Below are positions 7,706 to 60,423 of a stretch of 64,000 bases of DNA, piece after piece. The notes below the pieces were generated by a model. It worked only from the letters and a program-made list of their open reading frames with translations. It was not told the DNA's origin and made no database searches. Every line of letters begins with the position of its first letter. Position 1 is the first letter of the stretch. Source of the stretch: Saccharopolyspora aridisoli (GTDB taxonomy: Bacteria > Actinomycetota > Actinomycetes > Mycobacteriales > Pseudonocardiaceae); assembly GCF_004348445.1 (NCBI RefSeq), contig NZ_SMKV01000008.1:1-64000 (forward strand), written 5' to 3'. A program made the translations under genes and the position numbers.

Positions 7706-8530
7706 TCACATCTCGTCCGGGTCGGGGCCGACTCGGACGCCCGTCTCGAGGGCGGTGATGGCCTTGATGTCGTCCTGGGCGAGCTCGAAGTCGAAGACCT
7801 CGATGTTCTCCTTGATGCGCGACGGCGTGACCGACTTCGGGATGGTCACGTTGCCCAGCTCGATGTGCCAGCGCAGCACGATTTGAGCCGGGGTCTTGCC
7901 GTACTTCTCCGCCAGGTTGGCGACCGTGGCGCTGTCCAGCAGACCGTTGTTGCGGCCCAGCGGGCTCCACGCCTCGGTGGCGATGCCGTGCTCGGCGTGG
8001 AATGCGCGCAGCTCGGCCTGCGGCAGGTTCGGGTGCAGCTCGACCTGGTTGAGCGCCGGCACGATGCTGGTCTCGTCGAAGAGGCGCTCCAGGTGCGAGA
8101 CCTGGAAGTTCGACACGCCGATCGCCTTGGCGCGGCCGCTGTTGTAGATCTTCTCGAACGCCTTCCAGGTGTCGACGTAGGCGTCCTGGCTCGGAACCGG
8201 CCAGTGGATCAGGTAGAGGTCCACGTAGTCGAGGGCCAAGCGGGACAGGCTGTCGTCGAACGCCTTGAGCGTGCTGTCGTAGCCCTGGTCGTCGTTCCAC
8301 AGCTTGGTGGTGACGAAGAGGTCCTCACGCTTGACGCCCGAGTCGGCGATGGCCTTGCCCACGCCTTCCTCGTTGCCGTACACCTTCGCGGTGTCGATGC
8401 TGCGGTACCCGGCGTCGATCGCTGCGCGGACCGGGGCGATGACCTCGTCGGCCGGAACCAGGAAGACGCCGTAACCCAGCTGAGGCATGGAAGCACCGGT
8501 GTTCAGCGTGACGTTCGGAACCTGAGTCAT
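7706..8530 (-). CDS. Aldo/keto reductase
   Basis: A 274-aa NADPH-dependent (beta/alpha)8 reductase. The catalytic tetrad is visible: Asp and Tyr in DTAKVYGNE, Lys in TTKLW and His in LIHWPVP. The C-terminal cofactor motif IPKSVTPSRIKEN is present. The length and sequence fit the 2,5-diketo-gluconate reductase-like AKR5 group, although the natural substrate cannot be told. ATG 8530 has GGAGG upstream. The MFS exporter gene lies 115 bp upstream in the same direction. Confidence 0.9.
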   Translation of the reverse strand: MTQVPNVTLNTGASMPQLGYGVFLVPADEVIAPVRAAIDAGYRSIDTAKVYGNEEGVGKAIADSGVKREDLFVTTKLWNDDQGYDSTLKAFDDSLSRLALDYVDLYLIHWPVPSQDAYVDTWKAFEKIYNSGRAKAIGVSNFQVSHLERLFDETSIVPALNQVELHPNLPQAELRAFHAEHGIATEAWSPLGRNNGLLDSATVANLAEKYGKTPAQIVLRWHIELGNVTIPKSVTPSRIKENIEVFDFELAQDDIKAITALETGVRVGPDPDEM

Positions 8531-8645
8531 GTGCGTGTTTCCTCCACCCGATCGGGATTGGTCTTGCCAAGGGGCCCCGGTCGTCTGGAACTGATTCAGG
8601 GCCCCTTGCATTCCAGAGCACTCGTGTGAGCTGAGCAACCGCAGA

Positions 8646-9854
8646 TCAGGCGGTGAGCTCGGATTCGGTCGCGGGAGATGCCTGGTGCGAGGCCACGACG
8701 CCGCTCCGCTTCGGGCGGCTGTCCAGCCGGCCCGACAGCACCGCGAAGCCCAGTCCGACCAGCGCCAGCAGCGCGCCGATCCAACTCGGTGAGACCAGCC
8801 CGAACCCGGCGGCGATCACCACGCCGCCCAGGTAGGCGCCCAGCGAGTTGGCGATGTTGAACGTGGACTGGATGCTCGCCGAACCCAGCGCCGGGGCCTC
8901 CTTGGCCTCGTCCAGGATGCGGGCCTGGATGCTCGGGATCGCGGTGAACCCGGTCGCGCCGATCAGGAAGACCATGATCGGGGCGATGATCGGGTTCTGC
9001 GCGGTCAGCGCGAACACCACCAGCGACACCGCCAGCGCGGAGATGCCCACGCACAGCGTCTTCACCGGCGAGCGGTCGGCGAGCCGGCCGCCCACCGCGG
9101 TGCCGACGGTCATGCCGACGCCGAACACGGCCAGCAGCGGGGTGACCGCTGTGGCGCTGAAGCCGGCCACGTCGGTGAGCACCGGCTTGATGTAGCTGTA
9201 GAAGGAGAAGATCGCGGCGAAGCCGAACACGACGACGGCGAAGGCGAGCCACACCTGCGGGCGGCGGAACGCCCGCAGCTCACCGCGGAGGCTGACCTCG
9301 GTGGGCTTGGGCTGCTTGGGCACCAGCACCGCCACGGCGGCCAGCGCGACCACGCCGATCACGGCGACCAGGCCGAACGCCCAGCGCCACCCGAAGGCGT
9401 GCCCGAGCTGGGTGCCGATCGGCACGCCGACGATGTTGGCGATGGTGAGGCCGATGAACATCATCGAGATCGCCTGCCCGCGCCGGTCGGCGGAGACCAG
9501 TCCGGCGGCCACGACCGCGCCGATGCCGAAGAACGCGCCGTGCGGCAGTCCGGAGATGAACCGGGCGACCAGCAGCGTCTCGTGGTTCATCGCGAACGCC
9601 GAGAACAGGTTCCCGGCCGTGAACAGCACCAGCATGTGCAGCAGCATCGTCTTGCGGCGGGAGCGCAGGCCGATCATGGTGAGCGCGGGCGCGCCGATGA
9701 CGACGCCGAGTGCGTACAGCGAGATGTAACCTCCGGCGTCGGGGATCGACACCTGCAGGTCGGTGGCCACTTCAGGCAGCAGCCCCATCATCACGAACTC
9801 GGTCGTTCCGATCCCGAATGCGGCGATGGCCAGAGCCAACAGGGCAATGGGCAA
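8646..9854 (-). CDS. MFS transporter, DHA1/AraJ-like drug or sugar efflux
   Basis: A 402-aa membrane protein with 12 predicted helices. The N-terminal GIGTTEFVMMGLLPEVA is typical of the AraJ/chloramphenicol-resistance branch of the major facilitator superfamily, and GLRSRRK fits the loop 2-3 signature position. A proton-driven exporter by family; substrate unknown. The 198-bp stretch between this gene and the ctaD stop contains nothing I recognise. Confidence 0.85.
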   Translation of the reverse strand: MPIALLALAIAAFGIGTTEFVMMGLLPEVATDLQVSIPDAGGYISLYALGVVIGAPALTMIGLRSRRKTMLLHMLVLFTAGNLFSAFAMNHETLLVARFISGLPHGAFFGIGAVVAAGLVSADRRGQAISMMFIGLTIANIVGVPIGTQLGHAFGWRWAFGLVAVIGVVALAAVAVLVPKQPKPTEVSLRGELRAFRRPQVWLAFAVVVFGFAAIFSFYSYIKPVLTDVAGFSATAVTPLLAVFGVGMTVGTAVGGRLADRSPVKTLCVGISALAVSLVVFALTAQNPIIAPIMVFLIGATGFTAIPSIQARILDEAKEAPALGSASIQSTFNIANSLGAYLGGVVIAAGFGLVSPSWIGALLALVGLGFAVLSGRLDSRPKRSGVVASHQASPATESELTA

Positions 9855-55527: not shown

Positions 55528-56694
55528 GTGTCCGCTGTGGATCAGGATCAGAATCAGGAACAGCTGGGTCTAGAAGAACTCCACCGCATCTGGACGTCCT
55601 ACGGGCACGAGATGCTGCTGCACGATCTCGGCGGCGATGGCGAATGCCTGGTCAGGCGCGGTGAATTGCTGGCTCCGGCGGACTCGCTGGACCCGGTGCT
55701 CGACCGGTACCGCAGGTGGATCGATCGGGTGCACCACGACGAAGACCTGCTGCTCGCCAGAATTCGGCTCCGCGATGCCGAACGCGACCATTGCGTCGAC
55801 CTGGCAGGAGAGGGTGCCGGTGCCTCGGTGAACAACGTCCACGTCGGCAGTCCGGTCATGTTCGGAACTCCGGTGATGTTCGGTACCGGGGACGAACCGG
55901 AATTCACCCTTCCATTCGCAGCGCCGCCTTCGGCCGAATGGGAACCACCGGTGTTCGTCGGCGTGCTCGACACCGGTTGTGATCGGCATCCCTGGTTCAC
56001 CGGCCGCCCGGATTTCGAAGCGGTTCCGGAGGAATTGGACGCCGATGATGACTCCGGTCAGGACCGGCAGGCAGGGCACGGCACTTTCGTCAGCGGAATC
56101 GTCCTGCAGCACGCACCGGGCGCGGTCATCCGGCCGCAGCGCGTGCTGTCCTCGCTGGGATTCACCGACGACTGCACCGTCGCCTCCGGACTGCGCGCCC
56201 TGCGGCGCTCGGCGCAGCGCCGGGGCGAGTCGATCGACGTGGTCGTGCTGACCTCCGGCTGCCACACCGCCGACGACCGCTGCCCGGAGGTCCTGGCCTC
56301 AGCGCTGCGCGCGATGGACCCGGCCGTCGTGGTGGCCGCGGCCGGCAACCACGGCCGGACCCGGCCCTTCTGGCCTGCCGCCGCGCCCGAGGTGCTGGCC
56401 GTTGCCGCGACCGGGGCCGACGGCAAGATCGCGTCGTTCTCCAACACCGGCGGCTGGGTCGACGCCGCGGCCCCCGGCGTGGACGTGCGCAGCTGCTTCG
56501 TCCAGATGGCGCCCGGCGGTGACCGCGACTTCGGCTACGCGCGCTGGAGCGGGACGTCCTTCGCCGCGCCCAGGGTCGCCGCCATGATCGCCACGGCCCT
56601 GCAAGCGGAGCGGGTCCCCGCGCGGGCCCGCGAGCTCGTCGAGCACTGCTACCCGTACGACACCGCGTTGCCTGAGCCCGTCGCGGCCGAGTGA
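55528..56694 (+). CDS. S8 subtilisin-like serine protease, apparently cytoplasmic
   Basis: A 388-aa protease with the complete subtilase triad: Asp148 (GVLDTGCD), His184 (GHGTFVSG) and Ser344 (SGTSFAAP), with oxyanion Asn274 (AAGNHG). No signal peptide. The N-terminal 125 residues are a helical acidic domain, with a short duplication (PVMFGT twice) just before the protease core. It precedes the sigma/CHAT operon by 122 bases in the same direction, so a joint signalling role is plausible. Confidence 0.85.
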   Translation: MSAVDQDQNQEQLGLEELHRIWTSYGHEMLLHDLGGDGECLVRRGELLAPADSLDPVLDRYRRWIDRVHHDEDLLLARIRLRDAERDHCVDLAGEGAGASVNNVHVGSPVMFGTPVMFGTGDEPEFTLPFAAPPSAEWEPPVFVGVLDTGCDRHPWFTGRPDFEAVPEELDADDDSGQDRQAGHGTFVSGIVLQHAPGAVIRPQRVLSSLGFTDDCTVASGLRALRRSAQRRGESIDVVVLTSGCHTADDRCPEVLASALRAMDPAVVVAAAGNHGRTRPFWPAAAPEVLAVAATGADGKIASFSNTGGWVDAAAPGVDVRSCFVQMAPGGDRDFGYARWSGTSFAAPRVAAMIATALQAERVPARARELVEHCYPYDTALPEPVAAE

Positions 56695-56816
56695 TTCAGT
56701 ACCGCGATTCTTGACCCGATCGTGCGGTATCCACCGCCAACTGAATCTTTGAGCCCCCCTTCGTCCTCTTACTCGGTGGGAAGGAAGAGAGACACCGAGC
56801 TCCGGAGGTGCTGGTC

Positions 56817-57344
56817 GTGTACGAGGTCGGAGAAGCCGGTCCGGCTGCGGTGCTGCTGAATCGGGCAGCGTCCGGGGACGAACAGGCGTGGCGGGAGCTG
56901 GTGGACTTGTACACGCCGGTGATCTGGGGTGTCTCGCGGGCGTACGCCGGCAACACCGCGGACGCCGAGGACGTCTGCCAGGCGACCTGGTTGTCGCTGG
57001 CGGAGAACCTCGAACGCATCCGGTTGCGCCGCGCGCGGGCGCGGGAAGCGCCCGTCGGCCTGGACACCGATCACCTGGGCGCGACCGAGCACTCCGAGGC
57101 CGCCGAGAAGCTGGCGCTGCGCGTGGTCTCCGGTACCCGGTTGGCGCAGGCGTTCGGCGCGTTGCCGCAGCGTTGCCAACAGCTGCTGCGGGTCTTGGCC
57201 GTCGCGCCGGAGACCACCTACGCGCAGGTCAGCGAGGCGTTGGGGATACCGAGAGGAACGATCGGCCCGAAGAAGAGCCGGTGCTTGGCTGAGCTGCGCA
57301 GGCGGTTGGTCAGCGCCGACCTGCCCGAGGAGGTGGCGGGATGA
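56817..57344 (+). CDS. ECF-like RNA polymerase sigma factor with a shortened region 2
   Basis: A 175-aa sigma-70-family protein. Region 2.1-2.2 is present (AWRELVDLYTPVIWGVSRAY, DAEDVCQATWLSLAENLERI) and region 4 is intact (TYAQVSEALGIPRGTIGPKK). After Arg69, however, the expected D-P-x-x-x-x-x-W-L-x-x-T-A-R-R-E stretch of about 18 residues, which melts and reads the -10 element, is absent. GTG 56817 has GGAGG eight bases upstream. It overlaps the next gene by ATGA. Confidence 0.8.
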   Translation: MYEVGEAGPAAVLLNRAASGDEQAWRELVDLYTPVIWGVSRAYAGNTADAEDVCQATWLSLAENLERIRLRRARAREAPVGLDTDHLGATEHSEAAEKLALRVVSGTRLAQAFGALPQRCQQLLRVLAVAPETTYAQVSEALGIPRGTIGPKKSRCLAELRRRLVSADLPEEVAG

Positions 57345-57814
57345 AGCAGCGGATTCCGGCGGAATTGCGCCGACTGCGCGAACTGTTCCAGAACCAGGAC
57401 CCGGTCCCGGACCGAGTGCTGGCCGGCTCGTACGCGGCGGTCGCGATGCGCGCGGCGCGCGGTGACAGGGGCGAGCTCAAGCTCGTCGGTGACTCCGCGG
57501 ACGAGCGCATCGGCGTGCGCACCGGCGGCTCGCAGTCCCGCGTGCTGACGTTCGCGATGCCCGGCCGGGTGCTGGAGATGGACGTGGTGCCCACGGCGGC
57601 GGGCCTGGTCCGGGTGTCCGGGATGGTGCTCAACCGGTCCGGGCAGGCACCGCCGACCGGCGAGGTGGTGTTGCGCCACCCGTCCGGCGAGCGCAGCGGG
57701 GAACTGGACCGGCACGGCGCGTTCCAGGTGGCCGACGTACCGCGCGGGCCGCTGAGCGTGGTGTTCCGCCCCGAGCGGGCCGAGCCCGCCATCGCGGATT
57801 GGCTGGTCTGTTGA
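57341..57814 (+). CDS. Protein with a carboxypeptidase-regulatory-like beta domain
   Basis: A 157-aa protein. The N-terminal helix (AELRRLRELFQNQDPVPDRV) looks like a sigma- or partner-binding segment. The C-terminal half (LVRVSGMVLNRSGQAPPTGE, LDRHGAFQVADVPRGPLSVV) resembles a CarboxypepD_reg/SpaA-like beta-sandwich. Overlaps both neighbours by four bases, so it is made in step with the sigma factor and CHAT protein. It might be an anti-sigma factor or a protease substrate; this is inference. Confidence 0.6.
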   Translation: MKQRIPAELRRLRELFQNQDPVPDRVLAGSYAAVAMRAARGDRGELKLVGDSADERIGVRTGGSQSRVLTFAMPGRVLEMDVVPTAAGLVRVSGMVLNRSGQAPPTGEVVLRHPSGERSGELDRHGAFQVADVPRGPLSVVFRPERAEPAIADWLVC

Positions 57815-60423
57815 GCGCGGCGACGGCGGTGGCGCCGCCGGGTGCGATCGAGGCCGCGCTGCGGTGGCGCGACGAGGCGACCGCGGCACCGCACGACGCG
57901 TCGCGAGAGGCCGAACGACTGCTGTCGGGTGCGGCTCCGGACGGTGAGTTGCGGGTGCTGGCCCGGCACATCGCCGCGCTGGCGGCGGTCGAGCTCGGCC
58001 GCGTCGACGAGGCGCGCAGGCACGTGCGGCTCGGGCTGTCCACCGCGCAACGCGGTGGCTGGTCCAAGCGGGCCGCGCAGCTGCAGCTGACGCTGGCGTG
58101 GATCGAGCTGGAACGAGGCGCCACCGGAGCGAGCTGGGCGAACCTCGCCGCCGCCGAACCGCACCTGCCCGCCGAAGACCGGCCCAGGGCGACGTGCCTT
58201 CGCGGGTTGCTGCACTGCCAGCGCGGCCACCACCGGGACGCGAGACTGCGCTTGACCAGCGCTCTGGTCCACCTCGACGGGGATCGGCGGTGGAAGGCCA
58301 ACGCGCTGCTCGGTCGCGGCCTGGCCAACCTCTACACCAACAGGCTGGAGGAGGCCGAGCAGGACCTGGCCGACGCCGAGCGGATCTTCATCGACGACGC
58401 GCGCGGTGCGCGCGCCGCAGGCTGCCGGCACAACCGGGGCTGCGTGGCGTTCCGGGCGGGCGATCTGCCCCGGGCGCTGCGGCTCTTCGAGCAGGCGGAG
58501 GCGGCCGGGCTCGACGTCACCGCGAACCCGGAAGCCTCTGTGGACAGAGGTGAAGCATTGGCGGCGGCGGGACTGACCCGGCACGCCCGCGCGGTGATGG
58601 AACAGGCGGCGCAGCGCTTGGCCGCCACCGGACGGCAGGGCCGGCTCGCCGAAACCCGGCTCGCGCTGGCCGAATGCGCGCTGCGTGACGGCGACCCGGC
58701 TGCGGCGGCGGAGGCGGCGAGCGAGGCGAGGCGGTTGTTTCGCGGCCAGAAGCGGCCTGCCTGGGCGGCGTTGGCGTCGGCGATCGTGTGGCAGGCGAAG
58801 CTGCGGTCCGGGCAGAACACGCGGTACGCCCTGTCAGCGGCGCGACGAGCCGCCAACGCGTGCGAGGACTTCGGGTGGCGCGCAGCCGCCGCCGAGCTCC
58901 GGCTCACCGCAGGGCGCACCGCGCAGCTGGCGGGCCTGACCTCGGTGGCGCGCAAGCTGCTCGGGCGCTGCGCTGATCTGCGCGAGCTCGCCGTGCCACC
59001 ACAGCTGCGAGCCCTGGGCTGGTTGGCCGAGGCGCTGCTCGCCGAGCAGGAGGGCAACACCGCCCGGCTGCTGCGGGCGTGCCGAGCCGGGCTCAAGGCC
59101 GTCGACGGCCAGGCGGTCGGCATGGCCGCCTTCGAGATGCGGGTGCACGCGCTGGGACTGGGCGACGAGCTCGGTGAGGTCGCGGTGCGCGCCGCACTGC
59201 GCATCGGAGACCCGCAGCTGGTGCTGCGCTGGACCGAACGCTCGCGGGCCAGCGCGCTGCACCGCCGGGCGCTGCGACCGCCGTCGGACCCGCGGCTGAA
59301 CGCGGCCTTGGTCAGGCTGCGCGGTGCGGTGCTCGACGCGCAACGCGCGGCGGACCCGAAGCGGGCCTTGAACACCGTCGCCGAGCTGGAAGAACAGGTG
59401 CGGCACCAGGCGATGCTCGTGGAGGGTCGCACGGACCGGCTGCGGGCGGCGGCCGAGATCGGGGAGATCAGCGCCGCACTCACGGACGCCGTCCTGCTGA
59501 GCCTGTTCTCCGAGAACGGCAGGCTCTTCGCGGTGTCCATCGTGGACGGTGAGGCTGCGCTGCACGTGCTCGGACCGGAGACAACGGCGGAGGGCCAGGC
59601 CGTCCGCCTCCGCCACCTGCTCGCGCGACAGGCGTGCGGCGTGGACTCCCGCGCGGCCCCGATGTTCGAGCACGGAGTCGAGCTGGCCGCGGCCGAACTC
59701 CAAGCGCAGCTGTTGGCACCCGTCCTCCCAGCCCTGAAGCAGGGGCGCGAACTCGTCGTGGTGCCCACCGGTCGGCTGCACCTGCTGCCGTGGGCGGCGC
59801 TGCCCGCGTGCCGGGGCAACCCCGTCACGGTCAGCCCGTCGATCCGCTGCTGGCTGGGAGGCGCCGAGCGGGCACGTGAGGCGGATCCGCACGGCGGCAA
59901 GGCGTGGATCGCCGGGCCGCGTTTGGACCACGCCGAACGCGAGGTCCGCACGCTGCACCACCGCGGAGGCGGGCGGCTGCTCACCGGATCAGGCGCGAGA
60001 ACCGACCGCGTTCTGTCCGCATTGGACGGAGCCCGCGTAGCGCACCTGGCCGCGCACGGCCACTTCCGTGACGACCAACCGCTGCTGTCCTGCTTGGACC
60101 TCGACAACGGCCCGCTCTACGCGCACGACCTCGACGGCCTCCGCCGCAGCCCCACCACGGTGGTGCTGTCGGCCTGCGACGTCGGGAAGTCCGCGATCAG
60201 CAGGGGTGATCAGCTCAGCGGGCTGACCGCGACCCTGTTGGACCGGGGCACAGCGACGGTGATCGCCAGCGTCGTCCCGGTCCCCGACGAGCGGACGGTG
60301 GAGGTGATGCTGTCGCTCCACGACGGGCTCGACGCAGGCGTGCCGCCTGCCGCTGCCCTGGCCGAAGCCCAAGCGCGGCACGGCGAAACCGGGTTCATCT
60401 GCATCGGGTACGGAGGTGGTTGA
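57811..60423 (+). CDS. TPR-CHAT caspase-like protease
   Basis: An 870-aa protein. Residues 1-500 are TPR-like helical repeats (RVDEARRHVRLGLSTAQRGG, RLEEAEQDLADAERIF). The C-terminal 250 residues are a CHAT domain with catalytic His749 (LAAHGHF) and Cys789 (LSACDVG), as in separase/caspase-like peptidases. The TTG 57811 start overlaps the preceding stop. With a sigma factor, a small beta protein and a subtilase upstream, the operon has the parts of a proteolytic signalling or suicide switch. Physiological trigger unknown. Confidence 0.82.
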   Translation: MSAATAVAPPGAIEAALRWRDEATAAPHDASREAERLLSGAAPDGELRVLARHIAALAAVELGRVDEARRHVRLGLSTAQRGGWSKRAAQLQLTLAWIELERGATGASWANLAAAEPHLPAEDRPRATCLRGLLHCQRGHHRDARLRLTSALVHLDGDRRWKANALLGRGLANLYTNRLEEAEQDLADAERIFIDDARGARAAGCRHNRGCVAFRAGDLPRALRLFEQAEAAGLDVTANPEASVDRGEALAAAGLTRHARAVMEQAAQRLAATGRQGRLAETRLALAECALRDGDPAAAAEAASEARRLFRGQKRPAWAALASAIVWQAKLRSGQNTRYALSAARRAANACEDFGWRAAAAELRLTAGRTAQLAGLTSVARKLLGRCADLRELAVPPQLRALGWLAEALLAEQEGNTARLLRACRAGLKAVDGQAVGMAAFEMRVHALGLGDELGEVAVRAALRIGDPQLVLRWTERSRASALHRRALRPPSDPRLNAALVRLRGAVLDAQRAADPKRALNTVAELEEQVRHQAMLVEGRTDRLRAAAEIGEISAALTDAVLLSLFSENGRLFAVSIVDGEAALHVLGPETTAEGQAVRLRHLLARQACGVDSRAAPMFEHGVELAAAELQAQLLAPVLPALKQGRELVVVPTGRLHLLPWAALPACRGNPVTVSPSIRCWLGGAERAREADPHGGKAWIAGPRLDHAEREVRTLHHRGGGRLLTGSGARTDRVLSALDGARVAHLAAHGHFRDDQPLLSCLDLDNGPLYAHDLDGLRRSPTTVVLSACDVGKSAISRGDQLSGLTATLLDRGTATVIASVVPVPDERTVEVMLSLHDGLDAGVPPAAALAEAQARHGETGFICIGYGGG

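Follow-up and report, generated by a model that had tools for sequence, protein, structure and literature searches.

A 64,000-nucleotide stretch of the Saccharopolyspora aridisoli genome (assembly GCF_004348445.1, contig NZ_SMKV01000008.1, positions 1 to 64,000; hereafter the window) carries, at 55528-60423, a cassette of four genes. They encode a subtilisin-like protease (SUB), an extracytoplasmic function (ECF) sigma factor (SIG), a small protein of 157 amino acids (BETA) and a TPR-CHAT protease (CHAT). The four-gene cassette is a real and conserved set. As for its function, we put at about even the chance that SIG is an ECF54-type actinobacterial sigma factor set inside the cell by proteolysis, with BETA as an inhibitor that is cut by CHAT. 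Within the literature searched, and to our knowledge, the new elements are BETA as an anti-sigma candidate, a two-module architecture, an invariant arginine in BETA, a putative promoter, and a damaged sigma gene in the window.

The four-gene cassette and its conservation

All four open reading frames were found on the + strand in the order SUB-SIG-BETA-CHAT, and a first-pass annotation of the sequence had read them correctly as four same-strand genes, three of them with overlaps of 4 bases. SUB (388 amino acids; 55528-56694, +) is a protease of the S8 type, matching PF00082 (Peptidase_S8) at E 4.5e-25. SIG is listed at 56808-57344 (+), 113 nt after SUB; GTG at 56817, which gives a protein of 175 amino acids, is the likelier start because GGAGG precedes it at 56804-56808. 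BETA (57341-57814, +) overlaps SIG by the 4 nt ATGA. CHAT starts at TTG 57811 (870 amino acids) or TTG 57799 (874 amino acids) and runs to 60423 (+); given the start at 57811, it overlaps BETA by the 4 nt TTGA, and this junction recurs in close relatives. Hydropathy gave no apparent signal peptide or membrane stretch for any of the four window proteins (for SUB, the 19-residue maximum was 1.48 and the N-terminus scored 0.09), and all four look cytosolic by this measure.

Every one of the 22 genus genomes carried BETA; among the 61 genomes searched overall, 31 did. There were 32 BETA places outside the window, 29 of which were fetched with approximately 20 kb of DNA. All four families occurred together in 23 of these 29 stretches around homologues of the 157-residue protein, a neighborhood survey of the kind suggested in the first-pass annotation. 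The ratio of nonsynonymous to synonymous substitution rates (dN/dS), determined against two close relatives, was 0.07-0.28 across the four genes, indicating purifying selection. Because of this joint occurrence and these ratios, the cassette is more than a product of chance. In the window's family (24 loci, L031-L054), aminotransferase and DUF445 genes were found downstream at all 24 loci and a GntR-type gene upstream at 22, so the locus sits at one chromosomal place in that family; L055-L059 did not share these flanks. The contig of L056 starts near SIG, and the absence of SUB there therefore carries little weight. L059, a weak second BETA match, had none of the four families.

The catalytic residues of both proteases were assessed in stretches pooled from all surveys (139 SIG, 103 CHAT, 100 SUB and 132 BETA). 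The phylum and genus genome sets share a few contigs with the set surveyed around SIG, so the pooled SIG, CHAT, SUB and BETA counts are not fully independent; short stretches were omitted from the residue alignments, leaving 103 of 107 CHAT, 100 of 101 SUB and 132 of 137 BETA sequences aligned. The catalytic residues of SUB are D148, H184 and S344 (codon 56557-56559), and the D/H/N/S set was invariant in 100 of 100 aligned relatives. CHAT has a CHAT domain (PF12770, E 7.1e-34) and TPR matches that fall below their cut-offs. Its catalytic His749 (60055-60057) and Cys789 (60175-60177), in the numbering of the 870-residue form, did not vary among the 103 aligned relatives. Alignment and numbering agree that Cys789 and Ser344, the residues earlier put forward for mutation, are the right ones.

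Two gene pairs and a candidate anti-sigma factor

We performed a survey centered on SIG (profile A7) and took the best 80 of at least 532 confirmed places, a scope that holds for all counts from this survey. The survey is a fair test of linkage because BETA, CHAT and SUB were not used in the search. The loci came from Solirubrobacter, Catellatospora, Dactylosporangium, Amycolatopsis, Saccharothrix, Streptomyces, Kribbella, Salinispora, Pseudonocardia and others, all of which we take to be actinobacterial groups, apart from one record labelled only "bacterium". In 67 of the 80 loci BETA lay directly 3' of SIG in the same orientation; within the surrounding DNA covered, CHAT was present in 50 and SUB in 47. 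When the count was restricted to the 57 loci that had 5 kb or more of upstream and 5.5 kb or more of downstream DNA, BETA was found in 50, CHAT in 39, SUB in 38 and all of them in 34.

We also scanned 396 genomes across the phylum with a CHAT profile (A2, E <= 1e-20) and a BETA profile (A1, E <= 1e-3). CHAT was found in 51 genomes, BETA in 32 and both in 28; that is, 28 of the 32 BETA-positive genomes were CHAT-positive compared to 51 of 396 overall, with no correction for phylogeny. Forty stretches (L060-L099) were then examined: 30 were centered on the strongest CHAT matches, and the other 10 covered BETA places or what remained of a contig. The 30 CHAT-centered stretches represent 28 of the 51 CHAT-positive genomes; the weaker matches, many of them to the CHAT domain only, were left out. 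Among the 32 CHAT genes in L060-L089, SUB was within 8 kb of 30, SIG and BETA together were within 8 kb of 26, and all three were within 8 kb of 25. Among these strongest matches, CHAT genes are thus usually linked to the sigma and 157-residue genes, as the first-pass annotation had supposed, and this conservation of the neighborhood supports its idea of a stand-alone proteolytic switch without CRISPR.

In four genomes (G293, G176, G144 and G220) the cassette was split, with SIG-BETA at one place (L093, L094, L095 and L098) and CHAT elsewhere (L061, L065, L076 and L088), accompanied by SUB in three of the four. SIG-BETA (L096 and L097) and the CHAT match were on different contigs in G365 and G374. 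SIG-BETA and SUB-CHAT are two tight, separable pairs. This architecture bears on an alternative, namely that CHAT and SUB act on SIG itself and keep its level low, with BETA as an adaptor or helper and not an inhibitor. Such an arrangement is closest to what has been proposed in print for ECF54 sigma factors (PMC8999054, section 3.3). Both proteases are linked to SIG in the SIG-centered and CHAT-centered surveys, and at L079 and L080 copies of BETA lie beside CHAT and SUB with no adjoining SIG. However, the closest neighbor of SIG is BETA and not a protease, and BETA remains with SIG in the four split genomes; we therefore regard direct action of the proteases on SIG as unlikely, and favor BETA as the inhibitor.

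A small protein encoded directly 3' of an ECF sigma factor is most often its anti-sigma factor. An AlphaFold2 model of BETA (52 rows; mean predicted local distance difference test score 84.7, predicted template modelling score [pTM] 0.69) has two N-terminal helices, at residues 7-19 and 24-38, followed by nine strands that form a beta-sandwich. BETA of the window matches PF13620 (CarboxypepD_reg, carboxypeptidase regulatory-like) at E 0.0025, under the Pfam cut-off, and 16 of 52 BETA members match it at E <= 0.01, the best at E 2.8e-7. None of the 52 matched a peptidase family in Pfam at E <= 0.01. Arg60 (codon 57518-57520, +) lies in the loop between the first and second strands, and residues 55-66 around it have no secondary structure in the model. 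The residue is arginine in 130 of 132 aligned BETA proteins, with a gap in the other 2, and we infer that this loop is a candidate site of cleavage by CHAT. Instead of inhibiting SIG, BETA could assist it as a positive cofactor, or could serve the proteases as a structural subunit. The adjacency of SIG and BETA fits that explanation equally and does not tell an inhibitor from an activator; yet the usual role of a small protein in this position is that of an anti-sigma factor, and we consider a cofactor or subunit very unlikely. BETA as a candidate anti-sigma factor would be the one that ECF54 sigma factors reportedly lack.

The sigma gene, its putative promoter and other features

SIG scored 55.3 bits against TIGR02937 (cut-off 42.9; E 5.9e-15), and in Pfam its Sigma70_r2 match (E 2.1e-7) was over the cut-off and its Sigma70_r4 match slightly below. 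The protein has the sigma2-sigma4 architecture of ECF sigma factors, although 19 residues (57 nt) of region 2 are gone through an in-frame deletion at 57016-57017 (+). All 28 aligned relatives have these 19 residues, and the 139 SIG stretches surveyed retain them without exception (116 by pattern and 23 by eye). We take the segment to be region 2.3/2.4, the -10 recognition helix. The remainder of SIG is strongly constrained compared to L031 (dN/dS 0.066), and the loss is therefore either recent or an assembly error. Either SIG of the window is defective or the sequence is misassembled; since SIG is without its -10 helix, the switch may be broken in the sequenced strain, unless the assembly is wrong. 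The first-pass annotation was right in reading a sigma factor gene here, but the likelier start is GTG 56817 and the deletion went unmentioned.

The gap between SUB and SIG contains the motif TGAATC-N18-CTCTTA (56742-56771, +). All 21 family loci L031-L051, and the window too, have a relaxed form of it 5' of SIG. The exact motif had a single match in the 6.0-Mb genome of the window, and allowing one mismatch added 1 match. Across 22 genus genomes there were 18 exact matches, 15 upstream of SIG and 3 elsewhere, and a reversed control pattern had 0 matches in the same genomes. The exact motif was not found in 6 of the 22. We infer from these counts that SIG reads TGAATC-N18-CTCTTA as a putative promoter of its own gene in the window's family. 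In another family (f18: L068, L069, L070, L072, L074 and L083), a palindrome-like GTACGA-N7-(T/C)CGTAC lies directly upstream of SIG and is perhaps an operator.

SUB of the window has tandem hexapeptides, GSPVMF-GTPVMF (residues 107-118; 55846-55881, +), ahead of its catalytic domain. Among the 72 relatives that were testable (of 101), 23 have between 2 and 12 copies; the window has 2. The repeated unit is lineage-specific (NPAYQG, NPGYQG, GVPFWV, PSPGGT and others; for example, at L071, L073, L075 and L089). At L050, where no subtilase was found, CHAT is shortened (8177-9787) and much of its N-terminal TPR part is gone.

Proposed mechanism and relation to known systems

This set of genes has been reported before. 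In PMC8999054, which cites Casas-Pastor 2021 and Huang 2015, carboxypeptidase, subtilase and CHAT proteins are described as conserved around ECF54 sigma factors, with an example from Geodermatophilus, and proteolytic control without an anti-sigma factor is proposed there based on that gene context. In our literature search the set appeared in PMC8999054 only, and not in the parts covered of PMC10028731, PMC8195603 and PMC7159879. By its gene context, the cassette is best filed with ECF54-type loci. It shares with them an ECF sigma factor beside subtilase, CHAT and "carboxypeptidase"-type neighbors, as well as an actinobacterial occurrence. In contrast, the relevant part of the review has proteolytic enzymes and no anti-sigma factor, whereas in the cassette the closest partner of SIG is BETA. 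The "carboxypeptidase" of ECF54 neighborhoods is probably BETA, which showed no enzyme domain in Pfam.

In the mechanism that we propose, BETA would bind SIG and keep it from RNA polymerase, with the N-terminal helices of BETA as the probable contact. On sensing a signal through its TPR part, the caspase-like CHAT protease would become active and cut BETA, possibly in the loop of the invariant Arg60, so that SIG is freed. The subtilase would belong to this pathway too, as a second or an upstream protease. In the window's family, freed SIG would drive the TGAATC-N18-CTCTTA promoter ahead of its own operon.

Several observations weigh against this mechanism. BETA had no sequence match to a known anti-sigma factor, and common beta-sandwiches made up most of what its structure searches found. 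A model of SIG and BETA of the relative L060 joined in one chain had a pTM of 0.41 and no defined placement, with BETA covered by only 7 of 32 rows. No natural SIG-BETA fusion was found among 70 match pairs, and correlations of inter-family distances singled out no pair. Six BETA genes, in 5 of the 40 stretches L060-L099, were without SIG within 700 nt on the same strand (L079, L080 [two], L090, L091 and L099). SUB was not found at L050, L051, L054 and L057 and is therefore not always needed. The promoter motif was not found at the distant loci L052-L099. Finally, 13 of the 80 SIG loci fell outside the count of those with BETA immediately downstream, among them L176, where BETA is 162 nt after SIG. 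None of these 13 had CHAT or SUB in the surrounding DNA covered, and for that reason they may represent another sigma subgroup.

The first-pass annotation had compared the cassette to the protease-sigma architecture of type III-E CRISPR (CASP or Craspase: Cas7-11, Csx29, Csx30 and CASP-sigma), in which Csx30 inhibits CASP-sigma and the CHAT protease Csx29 cuts Csx30 (PMC10028731). The comparison holds for the plan: a TPR-CHAT protease with catalytic His-Cys stands beside a sigma factor, together with a third protein. As for the proteins themselves, no Csx29 or Csx30 chain was among the sequence matches listed in solved structures (searches to E 0.001, 1 and 10), and a distant homology is possible. 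BETA has 157 amino acids compared to 565 for Csx30, and a subtilase is added in the actinobacterial cassette, as had also been stated. The absence of a Cas gene was likewise confirmed in the neighborhood of the cassette: no Cas7-11 or other cas gene was among the five flanking proteins scanned, and no CRISPR-like array was found in the part of the window from 50 to 64 kb. In PMC8195603, neighborhoods are described in which the gene of a caspase-like protease lies next to those of an ECF sigma factor and a TPR (DUF1822) protein; the adaptor domains there are TRADD-N and EACC2, the word CHAT is absent from that text, and the parts of it covered describe no BETA-type protein.

CHAT proteases elsewhere serve in cell death and against phage. 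The cassette could be such a device, with the proteases as effectors and SIG merely raising cassette expression. In 8 of the 80 SIG loci, which all belong to one Catellatospora-type group, contractile-injection genes lie 3' of CHAT on the same strand (L118, L121, L122, L125, L126, L134, L136 and L137, about 3.5-6.2 kb of each; L136 and L137 are from the same genome). In Catellatospora, Rhizocola and Allorhizocola, a same-strand open frame begins 10-98 nt past the CHAT match and is followed by a tail-tube gene. At L136, the sole one scanned with Pfam, the protein of this frame carries a CarboxypepD_reg domain, and sheath and baseplate proteins were found as well; we presume a likeness of the protein to Pvc16/DUF4255, which Pfam did not find. 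Tail-tube genes were also more common in CHAT-positive genomes (17 of 51) than in the others (22 of 345), a comparison that ignores genome size and ancestry. However, only 13 of 22 genus genomes have tail-tube genes, so there is no general coupling of CHAT to contractile systems. In addition, the constant downstream flanks (24 of 24 family loci) and the presence of BETA throughout the genus are unlike a mobile defense gene, and matches in PADLOC were weak or generic: a generic subtilase model (E 8.5e-14) and IetS models (E 0.0012 or worse) for SUB, BovA (E 2.2e-4) for CHAT, and no match for SIG or BETA. We consider a cell-death or anti-phage device distinctly unlikely. The genome of the window (G000) has three tail-tube (PF06841) genes, on contigs C26, C22 and C45 and away from the cassette; contractile structures may therefore be present in the source genome, though not beside the cassette.

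A bolder version of the proposal seems to us possible, though doubtful: that the cassette is a CRISPR-free counterpart of CASP, widespread in actinobacteria, in which BETA would be a soluble anti-sigma factor of a new type and its cleavage at Arg60 by the TPR-CHAT protease would free an ECF54-type sigma factor. The repeat-bearing cytosolic subtilase would be the second protease and, in one lineage, the output would be a contractile injection system. If true, actinobacteria would use proteolysis by a caspase-like protease to release sigma factors as a general signaling principle, the CRISPR-linked version would be one case of it, and ECF54 sigma factors would gain the anti-sigma factor that they were reportedly lacking.

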